From assembly GCA_918797485.1 (NCBI GenBank), contig CAKKNE010000003.1:992001-1056000 (forward strand): a stretch of DNA of 64,000 nt, in the 5' to 3' direction. Each line of letters begins with the position of its first letter. Position 1 is the stretch's first letter. Of the stretch, positions 21 through 63,245 are shown in pieces. Both the position numbers and the translations under genes were made by a program. Under the pieces are notes generated by a model. That model did no database searches. It was not told the origin of the DNA and was given only the letters and a program-made list of their open reading frames with translations. The DNA is from Pelagomonas calceolata. Taxonomy: Eukaryota > Sar > Pelagophyceae > Pelagomonadales > Pelagomonadaceae.

Positions 21-44
21 GCTAGCGTCGTGTAAGGCACTAGC
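21..44 (+). promoter_or_regulatory. 24-bp intergenic palindrome-like element, copy 1
   Basis: GCTAGCG, TCG, then TGTAAGGCACTAGC. It lies 49 bp before the methyltransferase start. Half sites GCTAG/CTAGC sit at both ends, with the conserved TGTAAG-CACTAGC arm on the right. Confidence 0.6.
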
Positions 45-900: not shown

Positions 901-977
901 GTTGTTTTCGTCATTTGCGGTTTAAGAGAAGCGATTCTCTACAGCGATTCGAGCCGTAAGGACTGGATCCCTTATTT

Positions 978-994
978 CTAGTGTGTCACGCTAG
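978..994 (-). promoter_or_regulatory. 24-bp intergenic element, weak copy
   Basis: CTAGTGTGTCACGCTAG is a shortened, divergent match to the reverse orientation of the 24-bp element. It lies about 130 bp before the DUF1995 gene. Low confidence on its own. Confidence 0.3.
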
Positions 995-1130: not shown

Positions 1131-2635
1131 CCCTCAGCCATGCAGCTCGCGCTGCTCTGCCTCGGCGCCTCGGCGCTGGTCCCGCCGACGCAACGGAGAC
1201 CACCGACCGCGCTACGAGCGAAGGCCGAGGCCTTTGTCACAGAAAACGCCCCGGACCTCCTCAAGGAGATCGTCATGAAAAGAACAAGTTTGGGCGAGGA
1301 CGCGCGGCGGAACAACGCGCGCACGGGCGGATCTGTAAAACTAGAGCACGTGACGCTCGACAAGATCGATGGAAATGGCCTCGCGTTCACGTGCTCCGTG
1401 AAAAGAAGAGCGGGCGGCTTCGGCGGGGGGTTTAGTACAGAAGACGAAACGACCACCGCGAATTGGGGCGACTTACTAGAATGCGGCTGGGAGGCGGACC
1501 AGTGCGAGGTCGATCCCGACGGCGCGACGGCGCAAAGGAGATTGATGCAGGTCGCCTGTTCTCTGGGGTTGAATGGGGATGCCGCTAGGTTGCTCTCGAC
1601 GGAATTTCCGGGCGGGTTGGGCGACGCGGGCGCGCTCCCGGACAACCTGTGGTTGAACAACATTCCCGCGTCGAAGGAAGCACGAAGTCACTTGGGAGAT
1701 GCGGTCTGCGACGCTGTCGTACAAGCGATCCTCGAGGACGCGCCGACGCTCCAAGTCACGGTGAAGCCGCCCGAGCGCGGCCCTGCGTGGCAATCAACCT
1801 GTGAGTCGGGAGCTTTTCGCGTCGATGGCGTGAGCGCCGCGAAATTTGATTTCCACGCAGGCTCGACCCGGAGATGGACACTTATAGAATAGGCACGTTA
1901 CTGGAGCTCGCCCGCCACCTGGCTTTTAGGGTTATCGAGGGCACGGGCCGAAAAGTGAGGATATGCGTGCAGGCGCCGATGGGCGAGGGCATCTTCAGCG
2001 GTCTACCTCTATCGCTGAACGGCGTGCGCAAGCTCCTGGAGATGATGGACTGGGGGTCGCAAGGTGCCGAACTCCAGCAGAAGAAGTTCATCCGGTTTGG
2101 CGCCGTGGGCAGCGAGTGGGTCGACGCCGACGACGAGGTCTTTGTGGTGCTCGCGCCGCAGTCCATCGTGGGGAATAGCATCGTGCCCCTGCTGCAGGAG
2201 ATGGTCGAAGCCGCTAAGGGGAGGCCTGTGATCTTGATCAACGGTAGGATGGGCGACGTCCAGTCGAGTGCGGGCGTCATGTCGTATCGGGGACGGGCCG
2301 ATCGCCTGGACTTTGTCGACGAGTTCCGGGAGTGCTTTCATTTCTCGTTGGTGGTGCCTCCTGGTAGGACCTTCTTTCCTATTTTGGGTGCCGTGTGCCG
2401 ACCTTTTTTAGATTGCCCGTACGCGCTGTATCGGCGGCTCGAGTTATGCACCGAGGAAAATAGAATATTCGCGAACAGCGTCGAACGGGCGGCCGCGGCG
2501 AAGTCGGGCGACCTCGTCGAGAAGTACGAGCCCGTCGGCTGCTACGGGGAGATGCCCACGGCGAAGGAACAAAAACTCGCGTACCGCGAGGCGGCGAAGG
2601 CCGATTTAGCGGCGGGGCGCGTCGTGAGGGCGTAA
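1125..2635 (+). CDS. Plastid-type DUF1995 protein (two exons)
   Basis: Two exons encode about 480 residues. The N-terminus (MRPSAMQLALLCLGASALVP) reads as a signal peptide followed by a heterokont plastid transit start (GASALVP resembles the ASAFAP cleavage motif), so plastid location is inferred. The body matches DUF1995, a family known in chloroplast proteins such as Arabidopsis LPA3: exon 2 carries LDPEMDTYRIGTLLELAR, QAPMGEGIFSGLPLSL and LEMMDWG. The second exon starts at 1861 after TTTCCACGCAG, a decayed introner acceptor. The donor is ambiguous: 1787 (GT), 1790 (GC) and 1805 (GT) all keep frame, and 1790 is where the introner model would put it. The ATG at 1125 lies inside a start-proximal 16-mer; 1140 is an alternative start. 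Confidence 0.75.
1790..1860 (+). mobile_element. Decayed introner acting as an intron
   Basis: The intron ends in AAATTTGATTTCCACGCAG, the introner right terminus with one change in the ACACAG end, and holds the hairpin arm TCGCGTCGATGGCGT. The left terminus is degraded (CTGTGAGTC). The target duplication is not clear: the right copy would be GCTCGACC and the left GCAATCAA. Length is about 71 nt from the GC at 1790. Confidence 0.65.
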
Positions 2636-2659
2636 TTTTTCCTATGGATATTATTCTGT

Positions 2660-3736
2660 TTACTCGGACCAGTCGACGTAATGCTCGAGGCAGTTGGCGA
2701 CGTCTCTCTCTGACATGTTCTCGTCGAAATCTGCCGTGATCCACTTAAAGCTCACAAGAAGTTCGGAAGCCCCGGCAGCCCCGTGTATCGGCTCCCAACG
2801 GACACGGAGAGTTGGGTCCATCCAATTATGAGTATGATCGGCCCTGTATCTAATGAAATGCAACGCTTTATTCTCGCTCACAGGAGCATAAGGCATATTA
2901 TCGATCTCGAAATCGATTCCATGGCCAGAAATGTGATCGATCACACCAGAATATATCCTTGCAAATCGTACTCGCCCAGTCTGGTTTCTGCGCGAGACCA
3001 TCACATTTGCGCTGAACCGGACGTGCGGGTGGTCAAGAGCGCGCTCATACAAACCCTCTGGTATGCTAAAGCTCGCGCCAACACCTAGGGCCCCATCCGC
3101 ACCCTGTGGAGAGATTACCCTACTGCCAACATATGCGCTTTCCCAAGGCCCTTCCGCTTCCCGCAACCGGAGTTCCAGCGCCAGCGTATAATACGCTGGA
3201 ACTCCCGCCAGCGTGTACTCGACGAGGGAGATAGAGGGCCACGGTTGCTGGGACTCAAAACGCTCGCCGTTAAACTTGTCTTGATACATGCGGAAGAGCT
3301 CCCCCGGCGCCGGTACGCCGGCGAGCGATGTACCGGTGACCGGTAGGCCGGTGAGCAGCGGAAAGCGTTTCAATAAGAGGTCATGTTCAAGCCGCGGCGA
3401 GAGGCGCATGCACGCGTCGCGAAGGGTGCGACTCGCTACGACGCAGGTGAACCGCATGGGCAGGTCGACGAACGCTAGGAGCGCCCCGAGCACGTCCTCG
3501 GGAAAGCGCTCGATGTCACAGGAGGCGCGCGAGGCCGCGGCGACAACAGGTGGCGGCAACGTATAGTCCTCGAACGCTTCCAGCATACGCAGTGCGAGCG
3601 GAGATAATGTGGTGTCGAGACCAGCGCGCGCAAATTGGTAGTCCTCCGCTTCGCCTAGAACCGGGGCTGCCCCCCTGAGATCCTCCAAGGCCTGCAGTAG
3701 ACAGGCAAGCTCCCGCTCAGGCATCTGAGGAGCCAT
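2660..3736 (-). CDS. F-box domain protein
   Basis: A 358-residue single-exon protein. Residues about 75-110 (IERFPEDVLGALLAFVDLP followed by TCVVASRTLRDACMRL) fit an F-box, the module that docks SKP1 in SCF ubiquitin ligases. The long C-terminal part is beta-rich in appearance with no family I recognise; by analogy with F-box proteins it would bind the substrate. The stop lies 24 bp from the stop of the convergent DUF1995 gene, so their 3' ends must nearly meet. The ATG at 3736 is the first in frame and faces the divergent dynamin promoter. F-box call moderately sure; target unknown. Confidence 0.65.
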   Translation of the reverse strand: MAPQMPERELACLLQALEDLRGAAPVLGEAEDYQFARAGLDTTLSPLALRMLEAFEDYTLPPPVVAAASRASCDIERFPEDVLGALLAFVDLPMRFTCVVASRTLRDACMRLSPRLEHDLLLKRFPLLTGLPVTGTSLAGVPAPGELFRMYQDKFNGERFESQQPWPSISLVEYTLAGVPAYYTLALELRLREAEGPWESAYVGSRVISPQGADGALGVGASFSIPEGLYERALDHPHVRFSANVMVSRRNQTGRVRFARIYSGVIDHISGHGIDFEIDNMPYAPVSENKALHFIRYRADHTHNWMDPTLRVRWEPIHGAAGASELLVSFKWITADFDENMSERDVANCLEHYVDWSE

Positions 3737-3856: not shown

Positions 3857-3881
3857 GCTAGTGTCTTACAGGCCCGCTAGC
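3857..3881 (-). promoter_or_regulatory. 24-bp intergenic element, copy 2
   Basis: GCTAGTGTCTTACA, then GGCC, then CGCTAGC, one base longer in the spacer than the usual form. It lies between divergent genes, 121 bp from one ATG and 233 bp from the other. Confidence 0.65.
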
Positions 3882-4113: not shown

Positions 4114-6675
4114 ATGGCCGACCCGCCGAGCCCGAGCAAGATGAACACCGATACCCTGAGTGACGCCGCGCGGCCGCTCATCGATTTGATAGACACGCTG
4201 CGGTCCCACGGCGTCCAGCAGGATTTACCGCTCCCCCAAATCGCGGTCATGGGCGACCAAAGCGCCGGCAAGTCGTCTGTATTAGAAGCCATTTCCGGCG
4301 TGCCCTTCCCGCGAGGCACGGGACTCGTGACGCGGTGCGCGACGCAATTGATCATGAGCCGGGCCCCGCCCGGCGCAGCTTGGACCGCGAGTGCCTGCGT
4401 CGAGCCCAATGATGGCGCCGCACCTATCAAGTTAGAAAAAGCGGAGGACGTCGCCGACGTGATCGAAAAGTTGACTGCTAAATTGTGTGAGCGGGAAGGT
4501 GGTGCGTTCTCCACTACTGCTGCGGTGGTGATCAAATTGCGTTCGCCGGACGTCCCGGACCTCACTCTGTTGGACTTACCGGGCATCGTGCGAACCGCCG
4601 TCGCCGGCCAAAGTCAGTCGGTCATCGGTGATGTCAATTCATTGATAGAAACGTACCTGAAACAGGAACGGACCGTCGTATTGGCCGTCATCCCCGCGAA
4701 CCAGGACGTGGCGACCATCGACATCCTCCAGAAGGCGAAAGGTGCCGATCCGGAAGGCGCGAGGACCATCGCGGTCCTAACTAAGCCAGACCTCATCGAC
4801 CAGGGCGCGGAAAAGGAAGTGCTAGAAACATTACTCAACAAGCGCGCCCCGCTGAAGCTGGGCTACGCCATGGTGCGCTGTAGGAACCAGCGCGAGAACG
4901 AGGCGCAGATCTCGATGACTACTGCGCGCGAGCGGGAGAAGGCCTTCTTCGACGCTCATGCTTTTTGGGGCAGTGATGCATTGCATGTTCCTAGGGAACA
5001 GAGGTATACTTTGCTCGGTGTTGATGCCTTGACTGGGAGGCTATCATCACTACTGGTAACAAGAATACGAAAGGCCCTACCAGCTATCAAGTACGAGCTC
5101 CAGAATCAGAAAAAGGAGGCCGAACAGGAGTATAAAAGATTGGGTGGCGACAACGCGCCAGACGACCCCATCAAGATGCGAGCCGCTCTCGTGGACGTCG
5201 TCACGCGCTACGCCGCATTGATGAGACAATCCGCGAGGGGCAACTACGGCCACACGCTCCTAGCCCAAAATCCGAACCTGAGACTCTTCGGCCGCCATCA
5301 GGTCGTCTTCAAGGACCTCAAGGACTCCGTCGGAGACACGCAGCCCGCGTTCGACGACGAGCGATTTACGAAGCACCTCGCGCGGGAGATGCACGCCTTT
5401 CGCGGGCGGGAGTTACCTGGTTTCACCAATAGTCAAGTTTTCTATGGGTTCATGGTGAAAAATATAGAAGAGTGGCGGCCGTTCGTGGAGGATTGCCGCG
5501 CGCAATATGTCGCTACGACTATTCGGGTCTCTGACGAGTTGCTCGAGGCGCTGGCGCCGACGTATCCCTCACTAGTGTCAGAAATACGACAATTGGTCAC
5601 GACGATCCTGGAGGAGGCCGGGGATCGCGTGCAGCGCAAGCTTGACGACGTCTTCGCGAAAGAAAGCGATCCCTACACGACCAACGAGTCCATGCTTGAA
5701 TTGGTGAACCAGATCCGCATGAAGAACTTCGACATCGCTCTACGCTCTGTGTTAGACTCAGTGCCGCCGTCCGCACTTGTGGGAGACAACGAGGAGAAAA
5801 AAAGTGCAGCTGCTGCCGCACATGTCAAACGCAAATTAGGCCAGTGGTACATGGCCACCCACGGCGTCAACACCGCCTCCAAAGTGGAAGACATGTGTAC
5901 TTTATTAGAGGCCTACTGGGACGTGGCCACGAAACGACTGGTCGACAACGTGTGCATGACCCTCGAGCATGATTTTGCGAATTTCTCCCTTAAGAAACTG
6001 GAGGAGTCGTGTTTTCTCTTTGCGGCGGACGCTGGTGTTCCGGAGAAGACGGATTTACTTGAGAGGTTGTTCTTGCAAGATCCCCGAGTGGTTCAACAGA
6101 GAAAAGCTGCTCTGGAGAAGAAGGGTCGGATGGAGGCGGCGCTGGACGCTCTGGGCGAGTCGGGGCTGCGCGTCGTGGCGGAGCGGGCGAACTCCGTGAA
6201 GGTCGAGGCTCCGAAGGCGTTGGCGGCTGGCTTTGTGACGTCGGACCGGGAAGCGTCGAACGCGACGCTGACGACATTGCCGCCTCGGCGGGCGTCCTCC
6301 GTAGAGCGGGGCGCGCCGCCGCCGCCGCCCGCGGCGTCGCGCCCGCCGCCGCCGCCTTATGAGGAACCAACGAGGCCGCCGCCGCCGGCCTACGTCGAGC
6401 CATCGAGGCCCTCGCCGCCGCCGCCGCCCGCCGTGAATCCCGATTTGGTAAGAGCGGGGCTGCAGACCGCGGCGGAGAACCCCGAGCTCGTCAAAGCCGG
6501 CGCGGCCGCGGCCTACGAGAACCGCGAAATGCTCGGCGCGGCGGCGTCGGCCGTGGCCGACAACGCGGACCTCTTCTCGGGCGGCGGGCTCTTCGGGGAC
6601 GACGCCTCGGCTGCCGCTCCGGCGGATACGGACGCGCTGGCGAACAAGTTCGGGAGCTTGTTCGGGGACGCCTAG
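4114..6675 (+). CDS. Dynamin-family large GTPase
   Basis: An 853-residue protein with all dynamin GTPase motifs: P-loop GDQSAGKSS (about residue 47), the LPRGTGLVTR-like switch (FPRGTGLVTR), DLPGI (about 153) and TKPD (about 223). A middle domain and GTPase effector domain follow, and the last ~150 residues are low complexity with PPPPP runs and Ala-rich segments ending in FGSLFGDA, which may bind SH3- or WW-type partners. Dynamins self-assemble on membranes and drive fission of vesicles, mitochondria, peroxisomes or plastids; which organelle this one serves cannot be read. No PH domain is obvious. The start at 4114 has a good context (GCCATGG). Single exon. Family assignment is secure. Confidence 0.93.
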   Translation: MADPPSPSKMNTDTLSDAARPLIDLIDTLRSHGVQQDLPLPQIAVMGDQSAGKSSVLEAISGVPFPRGTGLVTRCATQLIMSRAPPGAAWTASACVEPNDGAAPIKLEKAEDVADVIEKLTAKLCEREGGAFSTTAAVVIKLRSPDVPDLTLLDLPGIVRTAVAGQSQSVIGDVNSLIETYLKQERTVVLAVIPANQDVATIDILQKAKGADPEGARTIAVLTKPDLIDQGAEKEVLETLLNKRAPLKLGYAMVRCRNQRENEAQISMTTAREREKAFFDAHAFWGSDALHVPREQRYTLLGVDALTGRLSSLLVTRIRKALPAIKYELQNQKKEAEQEYKRLGGDNAPDDPIKMRAALVDVVTRYAALMRQSARGNYGHTLLAQNPNLRLFGRHQVVFKDLKDSVGDTQPAFDDERFTKHLAREMHAFRGRELPGFTNSQVFYGFMVKNIEEWRPFVEDCRAQYVATTIRVSDELLEALAPTYPSLVSEIRQLVTTILEEAGDRVQRKLDDVFAKESDPYTTNESMLELVNQIRMKNFDIALRSVLDSVPPSALVGDNEEKKSAAAAAHVKRKLGQWYMATHGVNTASKVEDMCTLLEAYWDVATKRLVDNVCMTLEHDFANFSLKKLEESCFLFAADAGVPEKTDLLERLFLQDPRVVQQRKAALEKKGRMEAALDALGESGLRVVAERANSVKVEAPKALAAGFVTSDREASNATLTTLPPRRASSVERGAPPPPPAASRPPPPPYEEPTRPPPPAYVEPSRPSPPPPPAVNPDLVRAGLQTAAENPELVKAGAAAAYENREMLGAAASAVADNADLFSGGGLFGDDASAAAPADTDALANKFGSLFGDA

Positions 6676-6698
6676 AGTATAAGAAGTTGTTACACATA

Positions 6699-8096
6699 CT
6701 AGGTCCACGCGTCGAGCGTGAGGAGCGCGCGAGTGACCCTGCCGCCGAGGTGAGGGTTGTTTTGGTAGTCTCCATGTTCTGGCATACCGCTTTCGCCGGG
6801 GTGCGCCGGGCAACAAAAGCCGAGGCGAACTCCCCTGATATGGAGCTCAGCCGTGGCGTCGGGATAGTCCGCGATGGCGTGACACTGGGGGGCGAAGATT
6901 TCGTCAGCGCATCGCTCCCGCAATTCCGGGTCGTATGGCCGTTCAAGCATGCTCTCCTTCTCCAAAAGATCATCCGATGCAGTCAGGGGAATGAACGGTA
7001 AGATCGGATTCGTCCCAATCACCTGGCCATTAATGTGAACGTCGCCAGGCCAGTCCCGCAAACCCTGGACACCGACCTCGTGCTCCCCGAGGCACATCGA
7101 CTTCCCGTCAGAGAGCCGGAAGAGGTCCACGCGGACCGAGACAAAGCGGCGATTTTTCGGGAGCTGCGACGAGCGGTGTTCGTCGACATGACCGTGCTCC
7201 AGCAGCTGGTCCGGCCAGTCGTGATTGATCTCAGAGAATCCATAGATATTACCAGTAGCTGCATGAGCCACTTGGTGGCACCCGACGACGTTTGCGACTT
7301 CAGCGAGCCACGCGTTGTCCAGGCGATTGGTATGGTGGGTTTCATTCACCTCCCAAACTTCGCGAAAGAACCAATCCGGCTCGAGGCCGCTCGCGATGCG
7401 TAGGCTGTCCGCGAATCTCAGTTCGTCGGCCCAGGAGGTTTGCTCGTTTTCAACGCGGCCGGGCGCGAGAAAAGGCTCCGCGCCGTCAACTAAGACGCTC
7501 CGGCGGCCGACGACGGCGTCATTAATGTCACGGACGATCACATCGACTAGCAAGACGCGGCCCGGAAGCCGCAGGGCCGACGGCCGACGAGCTGCCTCAT
7601 CCTGGTCATATTTAATTTCATCGATCGCGTCGTCGTCGAGCTTGTGCCCAAAGATTGGCTCGCAGCGCGCCAGGGCCTCCGGCGACAGCGTCTGCTTTTT
7701 GGCGGCCCACCACTCTGGGCTCCAGCTCTCCTCGAAGTGTAACTCGCGCGCAAGCGCTTCTTCCGGCGTAAGCGCCAGCGGCCGCGAGGCCAATGTGATG
7801 CGCGACCCGTCCGCCGCCCTGCGCGGCGGCCGTGACCGCCGCGCGAGGAACGCCGCACCGAGACGTACACCGCGCCGCTCGAGCTCCGCACTTGTGGTCC
7901 AATAAGCTCGCGCCCGCGCCGCCGCGTGAGCATCTACTGCGGACGCTATCGTCTTCGACGCATGAGCGTAATTGGAGACCAGCGTCTGCTCATCACAAAA
8001 GGAGCAGATCACGTCGAGCGTGTCCGCATTCAGACTGTCCGCCGGCGCATTGCTGCGTGGCTTAGCGCTAGTGCTCTTCGACACTTTGAGACCCAT
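6699..8096 (-). CDS. Unknown protein, possible F-box N-terminus
   Basis: A 465-residue protein from the first ATG at 8096 (MGLKVSKS). The frame is open further upstream but without an in-frame ATG that keeps the promoter free. Residues about 22-60 (LNADTLDVICSFCDEQTLV, then ASKTIASAVDAH) resemble a weak F-box-like helical module. The remainder (motifs such as DWFFREVWEVNE, INHDWPDQLLEHGHVDEH) belongs to no family I recognise. It is convergent with the dynamin gene, 23 bp between stops, and is divergent from the P-loop kinase gene across a 24-bp element. Coding status is well supported by length and composition; function is open. Confidence 0.65.
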   Translation of the reverse strand: MGLKVSKSTSAKPRSNAPADSLNADTLDVICSFCDEQTLVSNYAHASKTIASAVDAHAAARARAYWTTSAELERRGVRLGAAFLARRSRPPRRAADGSRITLASRPLALTPEEALARELHFEESWSPEWWAAKKQTLSPEALARCEPIFGHKLDDDAIDEIKYDQDEAARRPSALRLPGRVLLVDVIVRDINDAVVGRRSVLVDGAEPFLAPGRVENEQTSWADELRFADSLRIASGLEPDWFFREVWEVNETHHTNRLDNAWLAEVANVVGCHQVAHAATGNIYGFSEINHDWPDQLLEHGHVDEHRSSQLPKNRRFVSVRVDLFRLSDGKSMCLGEHEVGVQGLRDWPGDVHINGQVIGTNPILPFIPLTASDDLLEKESMLERPYDPELRERCADEIFAPQCHAIADYPDATAELHIRGVRLGFCCPAHPGESGMPEHGDYQNNPHLGGRVTRALLTLDAWT

Positions 8097-8148: not shown

Positions 8149-8172
8149 GCTAGCGTATGTAAGACACTAGCA
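8149..8172 (+). promoter_or_regulatory. 24-bp intergenic element, copy 3
   Basis: GCTAGCG, TA, TGTAAGACACTAGC, followed by AAGC as in other copies. It lies 53 bp from the minus-strand start (8096) and 200 bp from the plus-strand start (8372). Confidence 0.65.
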
Positions 8173-11423: not shown

Positions 11424-11447
11424 GCTAGCGGCATGTAAGACACTAGC
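11424..11447 (+). promoter_or_regulatory. 24-bp intergenic element, copy 4
   Basis: GCTAGCG, GCA, TGTAAGACACTAGC. It matches the consensus at every fixed position and lies 150 bp before the FKBP start. Confidence 0.7.
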
Positions 11448-13388: not shown

Positions 13389-13412
13389 GCTAGCGTCTGT
13401 AAGACACTAGCG
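13389..13412 (+). promoter_or_regulatory. 24-bp intergenic element, copy 5
   Basis: GCTAGCG, TC, TGTAAGACACTAGC, then GAGC. It lies 156 bp before the EF-hand/MBL start; a TATAA-like CATATAAG follows at about 13460. Confidence 0.7.
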
Positions 13413-18610: not shown

Positions 18611-18634
18611 GCTAGTAGGTCTGCACACGCTAGC
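18611..18634 (-). promoter_or_regulatory. 24-bp intergenic element, weak copy
   Basis: GCTAGTAGGTCTGCACACGC with a terminal TAGC: both GCTAG ends and the length fit, but the TGTAAG core is lost. It lies 169 bp before the BTB gene. Confidence 0.35.
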
Positions 18635-22747: not shown

Positions 22748-22771
22748 GCTAGCGGCCTGTAAGACACTAGC
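22748..22771 (+). promoter_or_regulatory. 24-bp intergenic element, copy 6
   Basis: GCTAGCG, GCC, TGTAAGACACTAGC. It lies between divergent genes, 100 bp from the GT2 start and 143 bp from the membrane-protein start; a TATATAG sequence lies at about 22700. Confidence 0.7.
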
Positions 22772-33288: not shown

Positions 33289-33312
33289 GCTAGTGTGTTA
33301 CAGCTCGCTAGC
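33289..33312 (-). promoter_or_regulatory. 24-bp intergenic element, copy 7
   Basis: GCTAGTGTGTTACA, GCT, CGCTAGC. It lies 232 bp upstream of the WW gene and 37 bp from the stop of the glucosidase gene; only the WW gene has its start nearby. Confidence 0.6.
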
Positions 33313-41891: not shown

Positions 41892-41915
41892 GCTAGTGTC
41901 TTACATGCCGCTAGT
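41892..41915 (-). promoter_or_regulatory. 24-bp intergenic element, copy 8
   Basis: GCTAGTGTCTTACA, TGC, CGCTAGT. It lies in the 149-bp gap before the MCM gene, 81 bp from its ATG. Confidence 0.65.
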
Positions 41916-44357: not shown

Positions 44358-47300
44358 ATGCTGCGGGCCGCCCTGTTGCTCATGGGCAGCGCCGCGCTGC
44401 CGCTCCGGGCTCCCGCGCGCGGCCCCAGGCTGCGCACATGCAACAAGCCCTGGAGGGGCTGCCCCGAGGAGGGCGGCGACCTCGGCGAGAAATTAACAGG
44501 CTTCTCCGAGGCCATGGCCATGTACGACGACGACCAAAGCGGCAGCGCGTCCGCCTGGACCGGCGAGAACGGCCTCGACCGCGCTGCCTCCAAGGGCTTG
44601 GCGACGAGCGCCGCTGCGACGGCGCTGCGCCAGCTCTACAAGAACCACGGGGCGGACGGCCTCTACGCCGACGCGTTCGACTCCGAGACTATAAAAACCG
44701 CGGCGAAGGCCGAGCTCGGCGAGAACGGCCTCGACCGCGCTGCCTCCAAGGTATTCGCGACGAGCGTCGCCGTGACGATGGCGCGGCTCCAGCTCTACCA
44801 AAACGACGCGGCCAACGGCGGCGTCGACGAAGAAGAAGCGGCCCAGGGCTACCTCGGGCGGGCTCTCGTCAAGTTACTTGCAATTTTGCTAGAACTTGTT
44901 TTGGGACTCTTCGTGTTCGGAAGGATTATTCCGCGGCGCAGTAGCTTGGCGAAGGGCGCGGCCTGGCGCTCGTGTATCGTCGGCTACCTGCTCTTTTGGC
45001 CAGAGATCGCCCTCGTGGCGGCGGCGGCGACTTCGGTCCGCGGCAGCGACTACACCATTACGAAGACCAAGATCAAGACCAATGAGTCTCCGAGCTCGTC
45101 AGTCCAAAGCCTTGAGCAGCGGCGCGTGCTCTCGGGCTATGTGGACTGGGGAAATGGGAATGGCTGGTGCATGTCCGGGCTCGATGAAGAGATTGGCAGG
45201 GGAGTGTCCGATGCCAACGCCTGCTGGACGATGTGCGAGGATGAGTACGGCTCCGGCCTCGTGGCCATCGACTGGTCCGCCGCCGACGGCGAGTGCTACT
45301 GCCAGAACGACTGTCAGTGCATGGAGGACCACTACGACGCAGAAACCTACCTTGTCACGCGCGACTATTTCGCAACGCTTCCCGACAATTGCCCAGGCTA
45401 TGCAATGACCGATGACACCATCAGAACGGCCGTCGCGGCGTGGACCTCGGACGCGACTGCCGCCATGGATACGTACGGCCACATTTCTACTTGGAATACT
45501 GAAGGGGTGACGGACATGTCGTGGTTGTTTTGCGTGCGGGAGAATTGGATGGAAGGCGAGTCATGGGCGGACAACTGCGTCTTATCGACGTCGTCCTTCA
45601 TCGAAGACATCGGCGCGTGGGAAACCTACAACGTCAAGGACATGCGCTACATGTTCTACCGCGCCTTGGCCTTCAACCAGGACATCGGCGCGTGGGACAC
45701 CTCGGGTGTCACAACGATGATCTCCATGTTCCACGGCGCCTACGCCTTCAACCAGGACATCGGCGCGTGGGACACCTCCGGCGTCACGTCGATGGCGGAA
45801 ATGTTCCTGGAAGCCTCGGCCTTTAACCAGGACATCGGCGCGTGGGACACCTCTGGCGTCACGGTCATGGTCCAGATGTTCCACGTCGCCTTGGCCTTCA
45901 ACCAGGACATCGGCGCGTGGGACACCTCCGGCGTCACGTCGATGGCGGAAATGTTCTACGAAGCCTCGGCCTTTAACCAGGACATCGGCGCGTGGGACAC
46001 CTCGGGCGTCAGGAACATGCAATCCATATTCGAGCGCGCCTCGTCCTTTAACCAGGACCTCGGCTGGTGCGTGGACGACAATGTTGATTTTGACGACAAT
46101 GGAAAAACTTTTCAAGACGCGTTCGACGGCACCCAGTGCGCGTCGACGTCCTGCGGCGTCCTGCAGGGCGCCGCCTGCGCGCCGACGCCCGCGCCGACGT
46201 CGAAGTACTGGGGAAATGGGAATGGCTGGTGCATGTCCGGGCTCGACGAATTGATTGGCATGACGTCCGATGCCAACGCCTGCTGGACGATGTGCGAGGA
46301 TGAGTACGGCTCCGGCCTCGTGGCCATCGACTGGTCCGCCGACAACGGCGAGTGCTACTGCCAGAACGACTGTCAGTGCATGGAGGACTTACAAGACGCG
46401 GGAACCTATCTTGTCACGCGCGACTATATCGCAGCGCTTCCCGACAAATGCCCAGGCTATGCAATGACCGATGACACCATCAGAACGGCCGTCGCGGCGT
46501 GGACCTCGGACGCGACTGCCGCCATGGATACGTACGGCCACATTTCTACTTGGGAGACTGAAGGGGTGACGGACATGTCGAGGTTGTTTTGCGTGCGGCA
46601 GGATTGGATGGAAGGCGATTCGTGGTGGGACGATTGCGTCTTATCGACGTCGTCCTTCAACGAGGACATCGGCGCGTGGGACACCTCTGACGTCAAGGAC
46701 ATGCGCTACATGTTCTACCGCGCCTACGCCTTCGACCAGGACATCGGCGATTGGGACACCTCGGGCGTCACGGCCATGGACGAAATGTTCGGCCGTGCCT
46801 GGGCCTTCAACCAGGACATCGGCGCGTGGGACACCTCCGGCGTCACGTCGATGGCGGAAATGTTCTGCGAAGCATCGGCCTTTAACCAGGACATCGGCGC
46901 GTGGGACACCTCGGGCGTCAGGAACATGGTGGACATGTTCTACGAAGCCTTGGCCTTTAACCAGGACCTCGGCTGGTGCATGGACGACAACGTTGTCTTT
47001 GACCCCCACAACGAGGGCAAGGACATTCAAGACGCGTTCTACAGGACCCCATGCGAGTCGACGTCCTGCGGCGTCGTGCAAATGGACACCTGCGCGACGC
47101 CCCCGCCAACGCCGCAAGTATTGCCCACCAACTCTCGCGCCACCCTCGAGGGATCGATGACTTGCGCGGGCATCTCGCTGGCGGACGCAGAGTCGAACGC
47201 GGGCGTCTACGCGTCGGCAGTCGCCGACGTATACGACGTCCAAGCCAACAGGGTTACCGTGACGTTTTCATCTGGCCGAAGGCGTCTCCAGAGCGGCAGT

Positions 47301-49703
47301 GTCGTCGTCGACTACACAATTCTCTACGCAACCATGGCGGACGCGACGGCCGCAGTTGCATTGGTTCCCACAGCCACCGTCTTCGACGCTGCCGTTCAGA
47401 CCGCCGCGGCCGACGCGGGTGTCTCCGGCGTTTTCGCCGGAGCCACCGTCGAGGCTGTGGCCCCGCCCGTTGCAGCGCAGACGGTCTCGACCACCTACGA
47501 CGACGACGACGATGACGACGAGTGCGACGGCGGTTGCATCGCCTTCCTCCTCATAGTCTGCGTCATGTTACCATTATGCTGCCTCTGTGGCATCGTTTAC
47601 CTCTGCCGCAAGATGATGTGCAAGAAAAAGGACGAGGGCACGAAGGTCGCGCCGACGCAGCAGCAGACCATGACCATCACGATTCCACCGGGCGCGGCGC
47701 CTGGCGCATCGCTCCGGGTTATGACGCCATCGGGACAACCCATAGACATCGTCGTCCCGCCCGGCGCTGGACCCGGGACCCAGCTCCAGGTGCCGGTGCC
47801 GGCGCCTCAACCGGTGCGGCAACCGGCGGCAGCGTCCGCCACGGGCAACAAGCTCGCCTTCGGTGGCGCAGCGGCCGGCGCCGCGGCCGGCGCCGCGGCC
47901 GGCGCCGCGCTCACGACGTCGCAGATGGACATCCTCGGGCCGCTCTCCGGGGTTCTGGCGGCGCTCCCCGCGGCCGCGCCGCCGCCGCTCAATATGTGTC
48001 TGATGCCGTTCACGAGCGCCTTAGCCGAGCTCGGCATCGCGGTGCGCCAGGTGCGCTTCAACAAGGAAGCTGCGGCCATGCTGCAGCGGCGCGGAACGGA
48101 GATCGCCCAGAAGCTCCAGGACGTCGTCAAAGCGACGCAGGGCCTGCCGACGGGACAGGTCGAGGCCGTCGCTCGGACGGTGACGGCCATCGGCCAGGCG
48201 CTCGACGAGGCGGCCAAGTTCCTCCAGCAGTTCTCGAAGAAGGGCGCGTTTAAGAAGCTCTGCTCCGGCTCGCTCGACGCGCGGCAGTTCGGGCTCCTCG
48301 ACAAGCGGCTCTGCGAGCTCAGCAACGAGCTCGGCTCGGCGTTGGACCTCCAACAGCTCGCGCTCCAGGCGCAGCGGTTCGAGAAGATCGAGGGCTTGAT
48401 CCAGCTTCTGGGCCAGCAGACGGTCGACGCGAACAACCAGGCGGCGGCGCAGCGGGCGGCGATCATGTGCGGCATCCAGAAGGGCAGCGCCGTCGAGAGC
48501 GAGGAGCTCTCGGCGCTCGGCCTGAAGCTGGACCAGATCGCCGCGGACGTGAGCACGGTCATCGACCAGAACACGAAGCAGCAGGAGTCGCTCGACGAAG
48601 TGAAGGAGATGGTGGCGGCGAAGAACTCGAAGCTGCGGGGTCGGGCGCTGGCGCGCCAGGATAAAGATAGGGCGCTCGAGGAGCTGGAGATCGAGTTGGA
48701 CTCGGTCGAAGAGAAGCCCATCGCGAAGGGCTCTCAGGGCGCCGTTCACAAGGCTTCGTACCAAGGCGACGTGGTCGCGCTGAAGAAGATGAGTCTCGTC
48801 CTGTGTGGAAATCAACCAGTGCATCGGGTGCACCGACAATTCTTCACTAAGTCATTTCTCGGCGATGACGCGGCCGTCCTGGCTCGGTCAAGCGGTGAGG
48901 AACCGGCATCGCCACGCCATCGAGCAGACATCGCGTCGATGGCGTGGAGGACGACGCGATGATTCAGCACGAACACAGGTCTTATCGGCATCACGGCGAC
49001 GAAGCGGAACAAGATGATGCGGGACTTTTCGACGGAGCTGGCCATCATGGTGAAGCTTCGGAGTCCGCGCATCGTCGCCGTGTATGGGGTGGTGACGACG
49101 GACACGACTTGGCTGGGCCTCGTCGTCGAGTACTGCGGCGGCGGTGACCTGCGCGAGGCGCTCGACGCCGACGACGCGGCAAGTATTGACGAAGCGCAGC
49201 GGCGGAGCTGGCTATCAGACATCGCGCTCGGCATGGCGTACCTCTACTCCAAGGGCGTGGAGCATCGCGACCTCAAGACGTTAAACATCCTCCTCGACGG
49301 CGACCGGCGCTGCAAGGTAACGGACTTCGGTTTGAGCAAATCCGAGTCTCTTGCCACGGCGGCGACGCAGGCGACGGCCGGGGGGGATGCGAAGGGCACG
49401 CCTGCGTACATGGCGCCCGAATTACTCCAGCACAACATTTTCACGGAAAAGGGCGACGTGTACGCCTACGGCATGATCGTCTTCGAGGTACTTACCGGAG
49501 ATACGCCATGGTCGGGCCTCAATCAGATGCAAATCATGATGCAGGTGTGCATTCAGAAGGACCGCCCGAAGATCGACGGCGACGCGCCCGCGGACCTCGT
49601 CGCGTTGATGCAGAGGTGCTGGGCGCCCGAGCCCGACGCTCGACCCTGCTTCGCCGACATCAAAGCCGAGCTCCGCGGCGGCCCCGATACTCCTGCGAAG
49701 TGA
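44358..49703 (+). CDS. Receptor-like TKL kinase with duplicated DUF285 ectodomain (two exons)
   Basis: Exons 44358-48792 and 48979-49703 give 1,719 residues. A signal-like start is followed by two GENGLDRAASK repeats, a membrane-rich stretch, and two Cys-rich modules (WGNGNGWCMSGLDE, near residues 263 and 617). Each module leads into a row of BspA/DUF285 repeats (FNQDIGAWDTSGV), about seven and five. A Ser-rich segment, a transmembrane helix (CIAFLLIVCVMLPLCCLCG, about 1060-1080) and a PPGA-rich intracellular linker follow. The kinase domain (about 1450-1715) has VALKKM, HRDLKTLNILL, DFGLS and APELL, typical tyrosine-kinase-like enzymes. The last 230 bp before the stop lie in a 590-bp tandem duplication. 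The introner intron sits in the kinase N-lobe. Confidence 0.88.
48801..48978 (+). mobile_element. Introner with truncated right end in the kinase gene
   Basis: The left terminus is intact (CTGTGTGGAAATCAACC) and the interior matches the copies at 32309 and 32764, but the right end stops at AGCACGAACACAG: the AAATTTTGATTTCC part of the inverted repeat is deleted while ACACAG is kept. Flanks GTCTCGTC (48793-48800) and GTCTTATC (48979-48986) match at six of eight bases. The intron is 48793-48978 (186 nt, phase 1) and splicing gives KKMSLIGITATK. Confidence 0.9.
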
Positions 49704-50060
49704 TCCGAACGCCCGCACCTCGGCTTCTACTGCGGGAAATCTTACCATACCCTAGCACGCTAGTAGGATATCCTCCCCCCCTTCCTTCATCCTATCTTGT
49801 TCTCACTACATTCAAGCGTAATCATGATAAGAACTCATATTACCTCAAATTCAGGGCTATCCCCTTACGGGAGCATGTCAAACTCCTTAGTCGCCATACC
49901 CGCTGGGTGGCTGGCAGCTTCGCGCTGTCGGCCTACCGTTTTCCACATCTACTGTAATAAATATATAAATTAGAAATCGAGGACTGAGGGGGGGCACATC
50001 ACGTAACGACCCTTTCAATGAAATCCCAAGAGAACTGCGAAAGACGCCGCCCACCGCCTC
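49471..50060 (+). repeat. 590-bp tandem duplication, first unit
   Basis: Carries the last 77 codons of the kinase gene, its stop, and about 357 bp of downstream sequence. The next 590 bp (50061-50650) repeat it with no difference that I can see by eye. Confidence 0.9.
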
Positions 50061-50650
50061 GCATGATCGTCTTCGAGGTACTTACCGGAGATACGCCATG
50101 GTCGGGCCTCAATCAGATGCAAATCATGATGCAGGTGTGCATTCAGAAGGACCGCCCGAAGATCGACGGCGACGCGCCCGCGGACCTCGTCGCGTTGATG
50201 CAGAGGTGCTGGGCGCCCGAGCCCGACGCTCGACCCTGCTTCGCCGACATCAAAGCCGAGCTCCGCGGCGGCCCCGATACTCCTGCGAAGTGATCCGAAC
50301 GCCCGCACCTCGGCTTCTACTGCGGGAAATCTTACCATACCCTAGCACGCTAGTAGGATATCCTCCCCCCCTTCCTTCATCCTATCTTGTTCTCACTACA
50401 TTCAAGCGTAATCATGATAAGAACTCATATTACCTCAAATTCAGGGCTATCCCCTTACGGGAGCATGTCAAACTCCTTAGTCGCCATACCCGCTGGGTGG
50501 CTGGCAGCTTCGCGCTGTCGGCCTACCGTTTTCCACATCTACTGTAATAAATATATAAATTAGAAATCGAGGACTGAGGGGGGGCACATCACGTAACGAC
50601 CCTTTCAATGAAATCCCAAGAGAACTGCGAAAGACGCCGCCCACCGCCTC
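50061..50650 (+). repeat. 590-bp tandem duplication, second unit
   Basis: Second unit of the tandem repeat starting at GCATGATCGT, ending at CCACCGCCTC. Confidence 0.9.
50063..50293 (+). pseudogene. Orphan kinase C-terminal fragment
   Basis: The second unit repeats the 77-residue kinase C-lobe (MIVFEVLTGDTPWSGL to GPDTPAK) and stop, without the N-lobe, catalytic loop or promoter. It is a by-product of the tandem duplication; it could be read only by a transcript running past the first stop. Confidence 0.8.
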
Positions 50651-55125: not shown

Positions 55126-55462
55126 GTTTTACTTCTCGGTCATTACTTCGTACGGACTGTTCCAACAGTTCTCAGCACACGCAGTCGCGTAACAATGGAG
55201 CAGGAGATTTTTTTTAGCAGAACGAGCTAATGATAGATACACTAGCATTTCAGGTACGGGGGGGTTTGCCGAGGCGGTTCTGCTTAGAAGGAGGTACGCT
55301 GTTATGAAAGAAGCGGCCCGCGCCCGCCGCCGATGAATCGGCGACGCGCGGTGTCTCCCCCCCAGGGGCTCCGCCCACTAGTCCTAGCACCGTAACATCG
55401 ACTACGGGGAACCCTGCGACGTAACTAGCCTCAGCCTTCAGATCTCATCACAATTTAGAACA
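55126..55462. other. Intergenic region between two minus-strand genes
   Basis: A 337-bp region with a GGGGGGG run near 55257-55263 and CTCCCCCCC at about 55366. It must contain the coiled-coil gene promoter; no 24-bp element is seen. Confidence 0.45.
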
Positions 55463-57142
55463 CTAGGCCCCCGCCCCCGGACAGGACGCCTCCCGCGCCG
55501 CCGCCGACCAGAACTCCGCCGAGTAGTCGAAGCACAGCTCCTCGTTCGATTCGATGGACCGCGCCGCGTAGAGGCCGACGCGGTGGTCGCCATCAACAAA
55601 CATGACGCGCGGGATTAAGTTCGGCTGCGGGTGGTGGTTCGCGAACTTGAGTTTGGCGCCCTTCCGCGTCGCGTCGACCACGAGCTCGTCGTCCAGATCG
55701 AACAAAAACGAACACGAGAGCTTGTCGTAGATCTTTCCCCTTCTGTCGGCCTCGTCCTGCGACACCAGCTCGCCCCGATACTCGCCCACCAAATCGCCCT
55801 TCTTCACGGGTTTCAATGCAAAAGCCCCCCAGCCGTGGACCTGGGACCGCCCCAGCACCACGCGCGCGTGCCTATTGGTCCTCAATGCATTGGCAGCGCA
55901 TTCACCCCTACACGCACACACGTCCGGGTCGCACTCGCGCCCCAGCAAGAAGCAGTCGTTCCGCTCCGTGCCGCAGTGCAAACCGTCGCAGCCGGGGTAC
56001 CTTGCTCGACAATCAGAGGCACACGCGCAGTACTTCTCGCAAAAGCCGTTCCTCGCGACGCACGGACAAATCTTCGGGTCGTCGCAAGGACCGTCATGAT
56101 CACAACACACGTACTTCTCCTTCTTGCCCCTTTTACCTCCATGTTCCAAGAGTAGCCGTTGGCGCTTGAACAACATACAGCGATCCAGCTTCCGCTTCTT
56201 TTGGGGTAATAAGGGGATCGGGCCCGCTCTCTCAGCAACGAAGCCCAAAGCTCGTCGCAACGACGCGTCGTCCCGGAAGACCGCCGAGGCCTTCCTCACC
56301 AAAATGGCGTGGTCGCCCCGCGGCAGGTCGTTCCGCCGCTGCTCGCGGCGATACGCCTCCCGCAGGTCTATGGACGACTCGGCGAGCTCCCTCGCGGCGT
56401 CGTCCTCCGCGACGTCCGGGTCGACCCTTTCTCGTGACAAAGGTTGGCCGACCCCGTGGTTCGCACAGTCATAAACAAAGCACCGCCGACAGAAGAGCGA
56501 CTGGTACGAGTTCGCGAGCGACGCGTAGTCATTGCACTGGCGTAGATTCATGGCGTCTATCTTGACTTGTGCCTTCTTCTGACGCGGATTCCTCGCCGCG
56601 TCCAGCGCGGCGGAAACGGCGCGCGGGTCCTCTCTACACGTTTGGAGCTCGGATGACGCGGCCGCGGCCCAGCACAAACCCTCGGAGGGCCGCGGCGCCT
56701 GGACGCCCTCGTCGTAGGCCGCCACGTCCACACCGGTGGTATCGTCGTCTCCGAAGTAAGGAACGTATCTCAAGACCGGGTCGTCGCGCGCGTAGCGGTT
56801 TGTTCTTAATCCGGTCCACGCTAAAGCTTTGGGCAGGGGTACGTGGGGTTCTATCGTCTTCTTGAGCTTCGGGAAGGCGAGTGCAGGCCAACCTTTTGGT
56901 GCGCGCATCGCGCGGCGGTTCGGCTTTATGAGATCAGCGTTCCGCTCCTTCTCTCGCCGTCTCGCGTCTTCCAGTGAAGTCGTTTCGTCCAGTCTCGGGT
57001 AGAGCGCCTTGATTGCGGGCGGCGCGTAGGTCGGTTGCGCGACGAGCGGCGGCGCCGGGCCCGCTCGTTCTGCGCCTTTTTTTAGGGACGCGAAGACCGA
57101 TGCTATCGGCTCGCCGTCGCTCGCGTCGTTGGCTTCGGCCAT
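55463..57142 (-). CDS. E(z)-type SET-domain histone methyltransferase
   Basis: A 559-residue protein. After a basic N-terminal half comes a Cys-rich CXC region (YVCCDHDGPCDDPKICPC, CEKYCACASDCRARYPGC, CDPDVCACRGEC; about residues 335-415), then a SET domain at about 425-545: RSQVHGWGAFALKPVKKG, GEYRGELVSQDEADRRG, FANHHPQPNL (in place of the usual NHS), GIYAARSI-like GLYAARSIESNEELCFDYS. CXC plus SET is the layout of the Polycomb H3K27 methyltransferase E(z)/EZH. The N-terminal SANT motifs of animal EZH2 are not obvious. ATG at 57142. Family call is secure, substrate inferred. Confidence 0.9.
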   Translation of the reverse strand: MAEANDASDGEPIASVFASLKKGAERAGPAPPLVAQPTYAPPAIKALYPRLDETTSLEDARRREKERNADLIKPNRRAMRAPKGWPALAFPKLKKTIEPHVPLPKALAWTGLRTNRYARDDPVLRYVPYFGDDDTTGVDVAAYDEGVQAPRPSEGLCWAAAASSELQTCREDPRAVSAALDAARNPRQKKAQVKIDAMNLRQCNDYASLANSYQSLFCRRCFVYDCANHGVGQPLSRERVDPDVAEDDAARELAESSIDLREAYRREQRRNDLPRGDHAILVRKASAVFRDDASLRRALGFVAERAGPIPLLPQKKRKLDRCMLFKRQRLLLEHGGKRGKKEKYVCCDHDGPCDDPKICPCVARNGFCEKYCACASDCRARYPGCDGLHCGTERNDCFLLGRECDPDVCACRGECAANALRTNRHARVVLGRSQVHGWGAFALKPVKKGDLVGEYRGELVSQDEADRRGKIYDKLSCSFLFDLDDELVVDATRKGAKLKFANHHPQPNLIPRVMFVDGDHRVGLYAARSIESNEELCFDYSAEFWSAAAREASCPGAGA

Positions 57143-57335
57143 GGCTTATTCCTTCGCGCTGCGCACTGCTACTCGTCTTCGGGTCGCGATGCGCTCACAG
57201 GCCACGCGTCTACGTGTATCGCTACCACTGCACACCGCGCAGCGCGGACAGTACGTATGCCAGACAGTTGCGCTGCAGTCGAATGGCACGGATGTTGCAG
57301 CAATCGCGTGAAAAGTGATCAGCACCGCGGAGCTA

Positions 57336-57359
57336 GCTAGCGGCCTGTAAGACACTAGG
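57336..57359 (+). promoter_or_regulatory. 24-bp intergenic element, copy 9
   Basis: GCTAGCG, GCC, TGTAAGACACTAGG. One end base differs from consensus. It is preceded by an extra GCTA giving GCTAGCTAGCG. Confidence 0.65.
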
Positions 57360-57632
57360 AAGCGAGTCAAAGACCCTTGCGAAGATCTGAGAAGACCGCT
57401 TTGCAGGCTCCACCGTGTCCCACGTTCTCCCTGGAGGAATCTGCTCTCAAAAACCCGGAGCAAATTGCTGCAGAGGACACGTAACAGGGTCGCTCGCACA
57501 TCGCCTGAACACGGATATAGCTGCGTGCACTGCTTTAACTGACTCTCTTAATCGTCGCGCTGCGCTGTTGTGAAGGACGCGGTTAATCAACGTCGCCACA
57601 GTGAGTAGCAGCATTGTAGCAGCTACAAGCTC

Positions 57633-57648
57633 GACGCCATCGCAGCGA
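57633..57648 (+). promoter_or_regulatory. Start-proximal motif, divergent
   Basis: GACGCCATCGCAGCGA, two bases before the ubiquitin-like ATG at 57651. Confidence 0.35.
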
Positions 57649-57650
57649 TC

Positions 57651-58001
57651 ATGAGACGGATACTCGCAGCAGCACTAGTCGTCGCCTGCGGTGCGGTCGC
57701 GCCGCGGACGCGCGCGCCCTCATCGGGCCTCGCCGCGCTTCGCCGGATCCCGCGTGGCGGCCAGCAGCTCTTCGTCAAGACGCTGTCCGGCAAGACGGTC
57801 TCCATCGAGTGCGAGGAGAGCGACAAGATCGAGGACGTCAAGGCCAAGATCGAGGAGAAGGAGGGCGTGCCCGTCGACCAGCAGCGCCTCATCTTCGCGG
57901 GCAAGCAGCTCGACGGCCAGAAGACGCTCCAGGAGTGCGGCATCAACGAGGGCGACTCGCTTTCGATGGTGCTGCGCCTCCGCGGCGGGCCCCGTGCGTA
58001 A
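57651..58001 (+). CDS. Ubiquitin-like protein with N-terminal targeting leader
   Basis: A 116-residue protein. Residues 1-38 are a leader: a hydrophobic core ([15 protein letters not shown]) and a basic segment ([19 protein letters not shown]), resembling a signal peptide plus transit peptide with a GAVAP cleavage motif. Residues 39-113 are ubiquitin-like ([45 protein letters not shown]). The di-glycine is followed by PRA, so it needs processing. Lysines equivalent to 6, 11, 27, 29, 33 and 48 are kept; position 63 is Glu. A single ubiquitin with a plastid-type leader matches the symbiont-derived plastid ubiquitin-like protein (PUBL) of secondary algae and apicomplexans, which serves protein import across the second outermost membrane. 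That identity is inferred. Confidence 0.85.
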
Positions 58002-60440: not shown

Positions 60441-60873
60441 ATAGTATATCCTCCCCCCCGCCGGTTATAGATAGATAGTACACGTCTCCTGGGCCCGCTG
60501 CGGCGGCGTCATTGTGGCTAGCCCCTCTGGCACGGACCCCCCGTCGCCGCGGCGTCTTGTTGGGATTCGAGGAACGTAGGAGGAACGACGTTTCTACGTG
60601 ATGCGGTAGAGCCCCGTTTTGTAGCTAATGCGGGTCCGCGGGCGCGGCTGCTAGCGGTTTGTAGAGTCACTAGTCAAGAGCCGATTTTGCAGTGGCTCAA
60701 AAACGGCTGGGAGCACGCACCGCACGGGCCTGCTTCACGCAGAAACCTTTTAGAAGCGTTCTACGGTCCCTGTTAACGGCATCGGCCGAAGACTCTGCGT
60801 GAATAGCCCCGCGGCCTAGACCTTCGTCCTTGGGGGGCAGAGAAAGTAGCTCCTGCGGGACCCCCAAAGAAGA
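60441..60873. other. Intergenic region between two plus-strand genes
   Basis: A 433-bp region. It starts with a CT/C-rich tract (CCTCCCCCCCG at about 60449) and holds a 24-bp element variant (60650-60673). No ORF is supported. Confidence 0.5.
60650..60673 (+). promoter_or_regulatory. 24-bp intergenic element, copy 10
   Basis: GCTAGCG, GTT, TGTAGAGTCACTAGT. The core is altered but both arms are present, 201 bp before the ATG at 60874. Confidence 0.5.
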
Positions 60874-62872: not shown

Positions 62873-63245
62873 CGTTGTGTCGCACGCACTGAGCGTGTTG
62901 AGCGATGTCTCAGCGCGTACGCGTTGAGCGCGTGAGCGATGTGTTGCAGCAGCGCGCACAGCTGCTGGCGACTGCTATGAGCACTTATAGCACTTATAAA
63001 CGCCGAGCTCGCTCTGCAGCACAATGGCTTGCTAGTGTCTTACAGGACGCTAGCTTGGCTTTTCACGATCACGCCGGCTCTAGTTATCATCAGACGCGCT
63101 ATTCTCAACGGCGCGCGGTGTCATATTGCCTCCTCACTGTACTTCCAATTTCTCGCGCTCGCACACAGTTTCAGAGGCCCTACAACAAAAATGGCTAAGT
63201 CAACCAAGCGCCTGTCATCCCTAAGGAGAGAAACAGGTAGTTCAG
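62873..63245. other. Divergent intergenic region
   Basis: A 373-bp region with a 24-bp element at 63031-63054. A short ORF from 63191 (MAKSTKRLSSLRRETG) leads toward the small ORF at 63246 but in another frame. Confidence 0.45.
63031..63054 (-). promoter_or_regulatory. 24-bp intergenic element, copy 11
   Basis: GCTAGTGTCTTACA, GGA, CGCTAGC. It matches consensus at all fixed positions, 192 bp from the small ORF and 159 bp from the minus-strand start. Confidence 0.7.

Follow-up and report, generated by a model that had tools for sequence, protein, structure and literature searches.

The stretch of DNA analysed here (the window) is 64,000 nt long, spans positions 992001–1056000 of contig 3 in the 32.4 Mb, eight-contig genome of Pelagomonas calceolata, and carries a recurring two-part element of 24 bp with the consensus AGCTAGCGK-N0-4-TGTAAGACACTAGS(AAGC). 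The P. calceolata RCC100 genome has been described as comprising six nuclear and two organelle contigs, with 16,667 genes that have on average 0.45 introns each (PMC9481584). Copies of the element were scored with a gapped PWM trained on the window together with 200 kb of contig 1 (264 kb together), the consensus of which is AGCTAGCG K N0-4 TGTAAGACACTAG(C/G) AAGC. It finds 11 sites in the window, ten of them at 35–46 bits and one, at 18611, at 13.3 bits.

Divergent gaps hold the strong copies at 3857..3881 (minus strand, spacer of 4, 41.8 bits; 201 and 197 bp from the two coding starts), 8149..8171 (plus strand, spacer of 2, 43.9 bits; 102 and 198 bp), 11424..11447 (plus strand, 42.3 bits; 253 and 123 bp), 22748..22771 (plus strand, 41.3 bits; 169 and 97 bp), 57336..57359 (plus strand, 46.1 bits; 190 and 265 bp) and 63031..63054 (minus strand, 45.4 bits; 157 and 188 bp). 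In tandem gaps, the copy at 13389..13411 (plus strand, spacer of 2, 41.4 bits) lies 174 bp before the downstream coding start, that at 33289..33312 (minus strand, 38.1 bits) lies 211 bp before it and between two minus-strand genes, and that at 41892..41915 (minus strand, 35.1 bits) lies 109 bp before a coding segment assigned to MCM by Pfam. The copy at 21..44 (plus strand, 42.2 bits) precedes a coding segment with a Pfam methyltransferase match by 28 bp. Three copies are weak, namely 18611..18634 (minus strand, 13.3 bits), which is in a tandem gap at 219 bp from the downstream coding start, 60650..60674 (plus strand, nhmmer E 3.3), which is degenerate, its right arm holding roughly one additional base, and the shortened copy at 975..993 (minus strand, nhmmer E 1.8), previously placed at 978. 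The preliminary description had counted 11 copies and two weak ones; ten of those listed are indeed strong, and with the copy at 60650 being degenerate the tally becomes ten strong and three weak.

That the recurring two-part element is real was confirmed by the controls. The fixed pattern, allowing up to 3 mismatches, is matched 7 times in the window and 0 times in all 100 shuffles, and the right arm alone, at the same tolerance, is found 10 times in the window against a chance mean of 1.75. The spacing of the arms was noted earlier as almost constant; for the 52 sites found by the PWM in the 264 kb the spacer length is 3 in 37, 2 in nine, 1 in three, 4 in two and 5 in one, and the bases of the spacer are variable.

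The genes beside the copies are varied. Of 16 proteins adjoining strong copies in the window that were scanned with Pfam, ten have a match (methyltransferase, dynamin, SAP, FKBP, metallo-beta-lactamase fold, glycosyltransferase 2, WW, MCM, SET and ubiquitin) and six have none; the scan also covered two proteins adjoining weak copies, one with a BTB match and one without a Pfam match, and two proteins not adjoining a copy, and it left out a segment of 48 residues at 63243. The scanned neighbours in the window have no visible pathway in common, in agreement with the suggestion that the genes concerned, which include those for dynamin, MCM, SET, ubiquitin and glycosyltransferase proteins, share no obvious one and that the element may be a general one. 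One element-bearing divergent promoter is shared by a gene with a SET domain and a match to Ezh2 MCSS (55487–57145, minus strand) and a ubiquitin gene (57627–57956, plus strand).

Abundance and placement relative to genes

Genome-wide repeat counts of the element patterns, which are lower bounds, gave at least 1,177 exact places for the 14-base right arm, at least 900 for the exact full gapped form and at least 2,257 for the spacer-3 form with up to 3 mismatches, and the backwards pattern gave 0 in each case. Of the 52 sites that the gapped PWM found in the 264 kb with a score of ≥11 bits, 49 reach ≥18 bits; in the reversed DNA it found 0. Because the PWM was trained on the DNA that it scanned, this reversed control matters, as does the second set of loci considered below. 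Scaled from the sample, the number of copies per genome is between about 3,900 (from the ratio to the mismatch matches) and 6,400 (by length).

Gene models were built with a purpose-written 7-state coding HMM, trained on the same 264 kb and with no transcript support, and dropping coding segments of <90 bp left 174 of them. An equal density inside coding sequence, which according to the preliminary description would refute its reading, was not seen: 79.5 % of the 264 kb is coding according to the HMM and all 52 sites are non-coding, though the HMM penalises in-frame stops and the motif has stops in about half of the six frames, so that this count alone overstates the case and its nominal p is far too small. 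The distances of the sites from coding segments nonetheless show a real effect. Using these models, 35 of the 52 sites fall in divergent gaps, 15 in tandem gaps (a class that may also include introns), one in a convergent gap and one at the edge of the window, and 50 of the 51 placed copies are on the 5′ side of a gene. The intergenic, promoter-side placement first described for the window extends to the 264 kb.

Counted by gap, a site is present in 34 of 56 divergent, 15 of 60 tandem and one of 56 convergent gaps and, when only gaps of at least 150 bp are counted, in 34 of 56, 15 of 47 and one of 16, respectively (divergent versus convergent, Fisher p 1e-4). When the gaps are weighted by their length in base pairs, divergent ones are only modestly preferred to tandem ones (chi-square, three classes, p 0.009), and the central position of the element within divergent gaps is the stronger signal: the mean relative position is 0.515 with an SD of 0.127, where a uniform distribution has an SD of 0.289 (KS p 7e-11). 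The distance from site to coding start has a median of 188 bp (quartiles 154–237, n=86). As had been noted for the window, both orientations occur, with 22 sites on the plus and 30 on the minus strand, which amounts to no preference (p 0.33), and in tandem gaps seven sites are oriented with the gene and eight against it.

A single copy is present in 33 of the 34 occupied divergent gaps, and 84 of the 174 gene starts have a site in the upstream gap. The element is absent from 22 of the 56 divergent gaps and is thus not required at every promoter. Weak copies scoring ≥5 bits were found in one of these 22 element-free gaps, as in the reversed control (one of 22), in five of 32 element-free tandem gaps (reversed, one) and in none of 21 convergent gaps (reversed, one); below 5 bits, the real scores in element-free divergent gaps run slightly above those of the reversed control. 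Presence in divergent gaps is therefore close to all-or-none.

The second set consisted of the first 30 exact right-arm places on contig 1 (L001–L030), each examined in 3 kb with the same HMM and none of them in the training DNA. Twenty are in divergent gaps, ten in tandem gaps and none in coding segments or convergent gaps, and the mean relative position is 0.467 (SD 0.130), the minus-strand site coordinates used for this placement being off by about 10 bp. Counted from the sequences, orientation is with the gene in four cases and against it in six. Two members of the set, at positions 575887 and 575924 of contig 1 (L018 and L019), are same-orientation copies 37 bp apart in one divergent gap.

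The element in close relatives

When contigs of bacterial and archaeal genomes were scanned, the motif was found at four loci (L051–L054), all in marine MAGs that carry the label Spirochaeta or Desulfobacteraceae. Of these, L053 aligns colinearly to contig 6 of the P. calceolata genome at 83–94 % DNA identity, and L052 matches contig 4 at 82–88 %, with 70 % around the element. L051 and L054 match P. calceolata only in 2043–3615 (90–96 %) and 5370–7515 (94 %), respectively. From these similarities we read all four as probable pelagophyte contamination of the MAGs. As the four loci were picked for carrying the motif, only the P. calceolata partner constitutes an unselected test; two further copies in L053 did not match the searched pattern, and L059, which duplicates the site of L052, was excluded from the counts. 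In viral contigs the four exact element patterns had no match, though records very near the P. calceolata genome may be missing from that set.

At two orthologous loci the element is an island of conservation. Between L052 and contig 4 it is identical in 24 of 25 columns, whereas the poorly aligning flanks agree in 48 of 80 and 36 of 63, and between position 4297 of L053 and contig 6 it is identical in 22 of 23, compared with 19 of 39 and 47 of 64. For the copy at L053 position 2207 the core is kept, but in contig 6 the first letter differs and the right arm contains an additional base. At L053 position 5360 and in the counterpart interval of contig 6 there is a copy in both lineages, in opposite orientation and with unlike flanks, and here the element has been kept in place, not in direction. 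The pairs L051/contig 1 and L054/contig 2 are identical in 24 of 25 and 22 of 23 columns, and these loci are too similar throughout to be informative. The preliminary description had looked to another pelagophyte for conservation of the fixed positions; conservation is found only against close relatives, with 82–96 % DNA identity in the aligned parts.

The copies shared by L052 and contig 4 and by L053 (position 2207) and contig 6 extend to CACTAGGCATCCC in both lineages, possibly an additional module. A further copy (L060) lies on another contig of the MAG that includes L053.

A putative general regulatory factor and the alternatives

From its apparent working, the element, a real and very abundant promoter element, seems to be of the general regulatory factor (GRF) or insulator type. 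On balance, we consider it probable, though by a good distance not certain, that it is the long, high-specificity site of a putative general regulatory factor and marks the centres of promoters. A protein, whether one general factor or two that cooperate, would bind near the middle of the promoter gap, and the bound element would keep that stretch accessible and exclude nucleosomes. It would mark a boundary from which the flanking gene or genes are transcribed, with initiation on one or both sides, and may organise or insulate bidirectional transcription. The fixed letters of the element total about 36 bits (summed PWM columns) where, by arithmetic, about 13–14 bits are enough to locate some thousands of sites in 32 Mb, and hence each arm may have its own reader, either two partner proteins or two flexibly linked DNA-binding domains, the spacer being 1–5 and mostly 3; according to an argument attributed to Schneider, an information excess of this kind reportedly suggests more than one reader. 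A fuller version of this proposal is a lineage-specific architectural system, in which two cooperating modules would recognise a composite ~36-bit site that fixes the bidirectional-promoter midpoint for about half of the genes of this abundant marine alga. The system would fill on its own a role that several general factors share in yeast, and the close to all-or-none presence of the site would split the promoters into two classes. We put this version forward tentatively and would not expect all of it to hold.

The composition of the DNA around the sites was also examined. Gap cores with and without the element are alike in A+T (0.404 and 0.385, respectively; 95 % interval of the difference −0.005 to 0.045, not significant), and base composition thus gives no sign of special nucleosome exclusion. 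The sites are surrounded by an A+T-rich, CpG-poor central zone of about 100 bp on each side, A+T within 100 bp being 0.42–0.47, with a first 25-bp bin that includes the motif itself. No period was visible by eye in the profiles of CpG or A/T around the sites, from which one of the neighbouring L018 and L019 sites was dropped, and oriented core-promoter words showed weak biases only relative to the element. A six-frame search for C2H2 domains (PF00096) gave two weak matches at E≤0.001 among 34 scored candidates, the 23-residue model being weak in such a search.

Nucleosome-free regions in yeast are shaped by GRFs, which replace one another from one fungal lineage to the next so that the repertoire differs (PMC2897762), and they have been described as enriched at directional promoters (PMC9481977). 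Like the sites of yeast Reb1, Abf1 and Rap1, the element is common to many unrelated genes and lies in promoter gaps. Unlike them, it is ~24–28 bp long, holds ~36 bits and is centred between two coding genes. Reb1 and Abf1 sites are much shorter than this. CTCF sites are long, asymmetric and multi-part, have a variable gap between modules and occur in thousands of copies, in all of which the element resembles them, but its predominant placement 5′ of genes (50 of 51 placed copies) and the lack of any visible orientation rule distinguish it from CTCF-type insulator sites. The M1BP motif and those of ZNF143 and NRF1, which mark housekeeping and bidirectional promoters in metazoans, are found near the starts of broadly used genes, and the element too is near gene starts; however, its host is a stramenopile alga and, to our knowledge, its sequence is unrelated to these motifs.

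An ordinary regulon-specific transcription factor, responding for example to growth, light or the cell cycle and controlling a very large regulon, would also place one site per promoter, would leave 22 of 56 divergent promoters without it, and might well have MCM, ubiquitin and SET genes among its targets. That 84 of the 174 sampled gene starts have a copy, that the tested neighbours have no evident common pathway and that the element is centred between both genes, which one-sided regulation does not lead one to expect, make this explanation unlikely.

If the element were instead a core-promoter or start-site element directing initiation itself, perhaps in both directions, the promoter-side placement and the regular distance from coding starts would follow. 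Such an element would hardly be expected to lack a preferred orientation or to have ~80 bp between the quartiles of its distance to the coding start, and the word ACGCC[AG]TCG lies closer on the strand of the gene (median 35.5 bp), even if the opposite strand accounts for 19 of 43. We therefore regard this role as improbable.

Little probability is also attached to the suggestion that the element marks some other chromosomal activity in open promoters, such as replication origins, recombination sites or domain boundaries. Long, high-information, orientation-free sites are typical of architectural factors such as CTCF, but a site that occurs by the thousand and precedes about half of the sampled gene starts is too common to fit origins well, and PRDM9-like hotspots erode, against which the conservation at orthologous positions argues.

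Near-identical copies in such numbers might also be left by a mobile element or other short repeat that is dispersed and inserts close to promoters, an explanation that is very improbable here. For 51 of the 52 sites there is no excess of target duplications over shuffled pairings (4-mers, 12 versus 12.2; 5-mers, 5 versus 4.1; 6-mers, 0 versus 1.2), pairwise identity of the flanks is at chance (0.26) with no conserved body, the spacer varies in length, and the copies are centrally placed and mostly one per gap. A mobile or introner element was rejected on the first two of these grounds. Together with the variable spacer bases, the lack of coding copies, the promoter-side placement and the two conserved loci, they favour the earlier interpretation of the element as a probable two-part protein site rather than a repeat copied by transposition. 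Action in RNA, as structure or processing of a 5′ untranslated region, is scarcely credible, and a structured RNA element was rejected. Pairing between the GCTAG/CTAGC ends is possible, but the four copies from the window that were folded do not differ for the better from shuffled sequences (z 0.17, 0.75, −1.25 and 0.15), orientation relative to genes is not fixed, and the window contains no Rfam family at gathering thresholds.

We know of no general promoter factor described for pelagophytes. No description of the element was found in the literature on Pelagomonas, Aureococcus or stramenopile promoters, the best matches only being considered for broader topics, and the matches to the string TGTAAGACAC were unrelated by title. 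The words ‘motif’ and ‘promoter’ do not appear in the main text of the genome report (PMC9481584). The organisation of stramenopile algal promoters is little known, and with a single site that is easy to recognise and precedes 84 of the 174 sampled gene starts it becomes open to direct tests; the element would also aid promoter annotation in P. calceolata and in its bloom-forming relatives, should they share it.

Dispersed repeats and other words in the same DNA

The introner elements of pelagophytes are, like the element, dispersed multi-copy sequences of the same genome, and a peak of intron length at ~210 bp in P. calceolata has been described as characteristic of introners (PMC9481584). 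The element differs from them in that it is 24 bp long, lies outside coding models, has no preferred orientation and lacks a conserved body. Possible introners were also seen. Two inverted repeat pairs with intron-like ends, 1817–1861/34074–34118 (GGCGTGAG...GATTTCCACGCAGG) and 32308–32943/48793–48974, are perhaps introner elements. A dispersed repeat of ~157 nt is present at 55261–55397 of the window (minus strand), at positions 1004902, 1082884 and 1142275 of contig 1 and at 299–455 of L053. These places overlap those of a core, GGTGCTAGGACTAGTGGGC, which was counted 475 times in the genome when up to 3 mismatches were allowed (control, 4). All five exact copies of CTAGGACTAG in the 264 kb are in gaps between coding segments of one strand and on that strand, as introner-like introns would be.

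Other words recur near genes. A second promoter-associated word, GGGCAGCC/GGCTGCCC, is found in promoter gaps across the 264 kb, and GGCTGCC[CA] occurs in 15 of the 34 divergent gaps that carry the element and in 11 of the 22 that lack it, in seven of 32 tandem gaps without it and in one of 21 convergent gaps. The ACGCCATCGACGCG-type word, when on the same strand as the gene, lies a median of 35.5 bp before the coding start (24 on the same strand, 19 on the opposite one); 50 of its 138 places are coding, and its complement adjoins intron-like repeats. The window, in which no tRNA was found, also includes a tandem repeat with a 75-bp period at 45520–47103, in two blocks inside a long coding model, and a direct duplication of 300 nt at 100 % identity (49471–49770 and 50061–50360), the starts of which are 590 bp apart.
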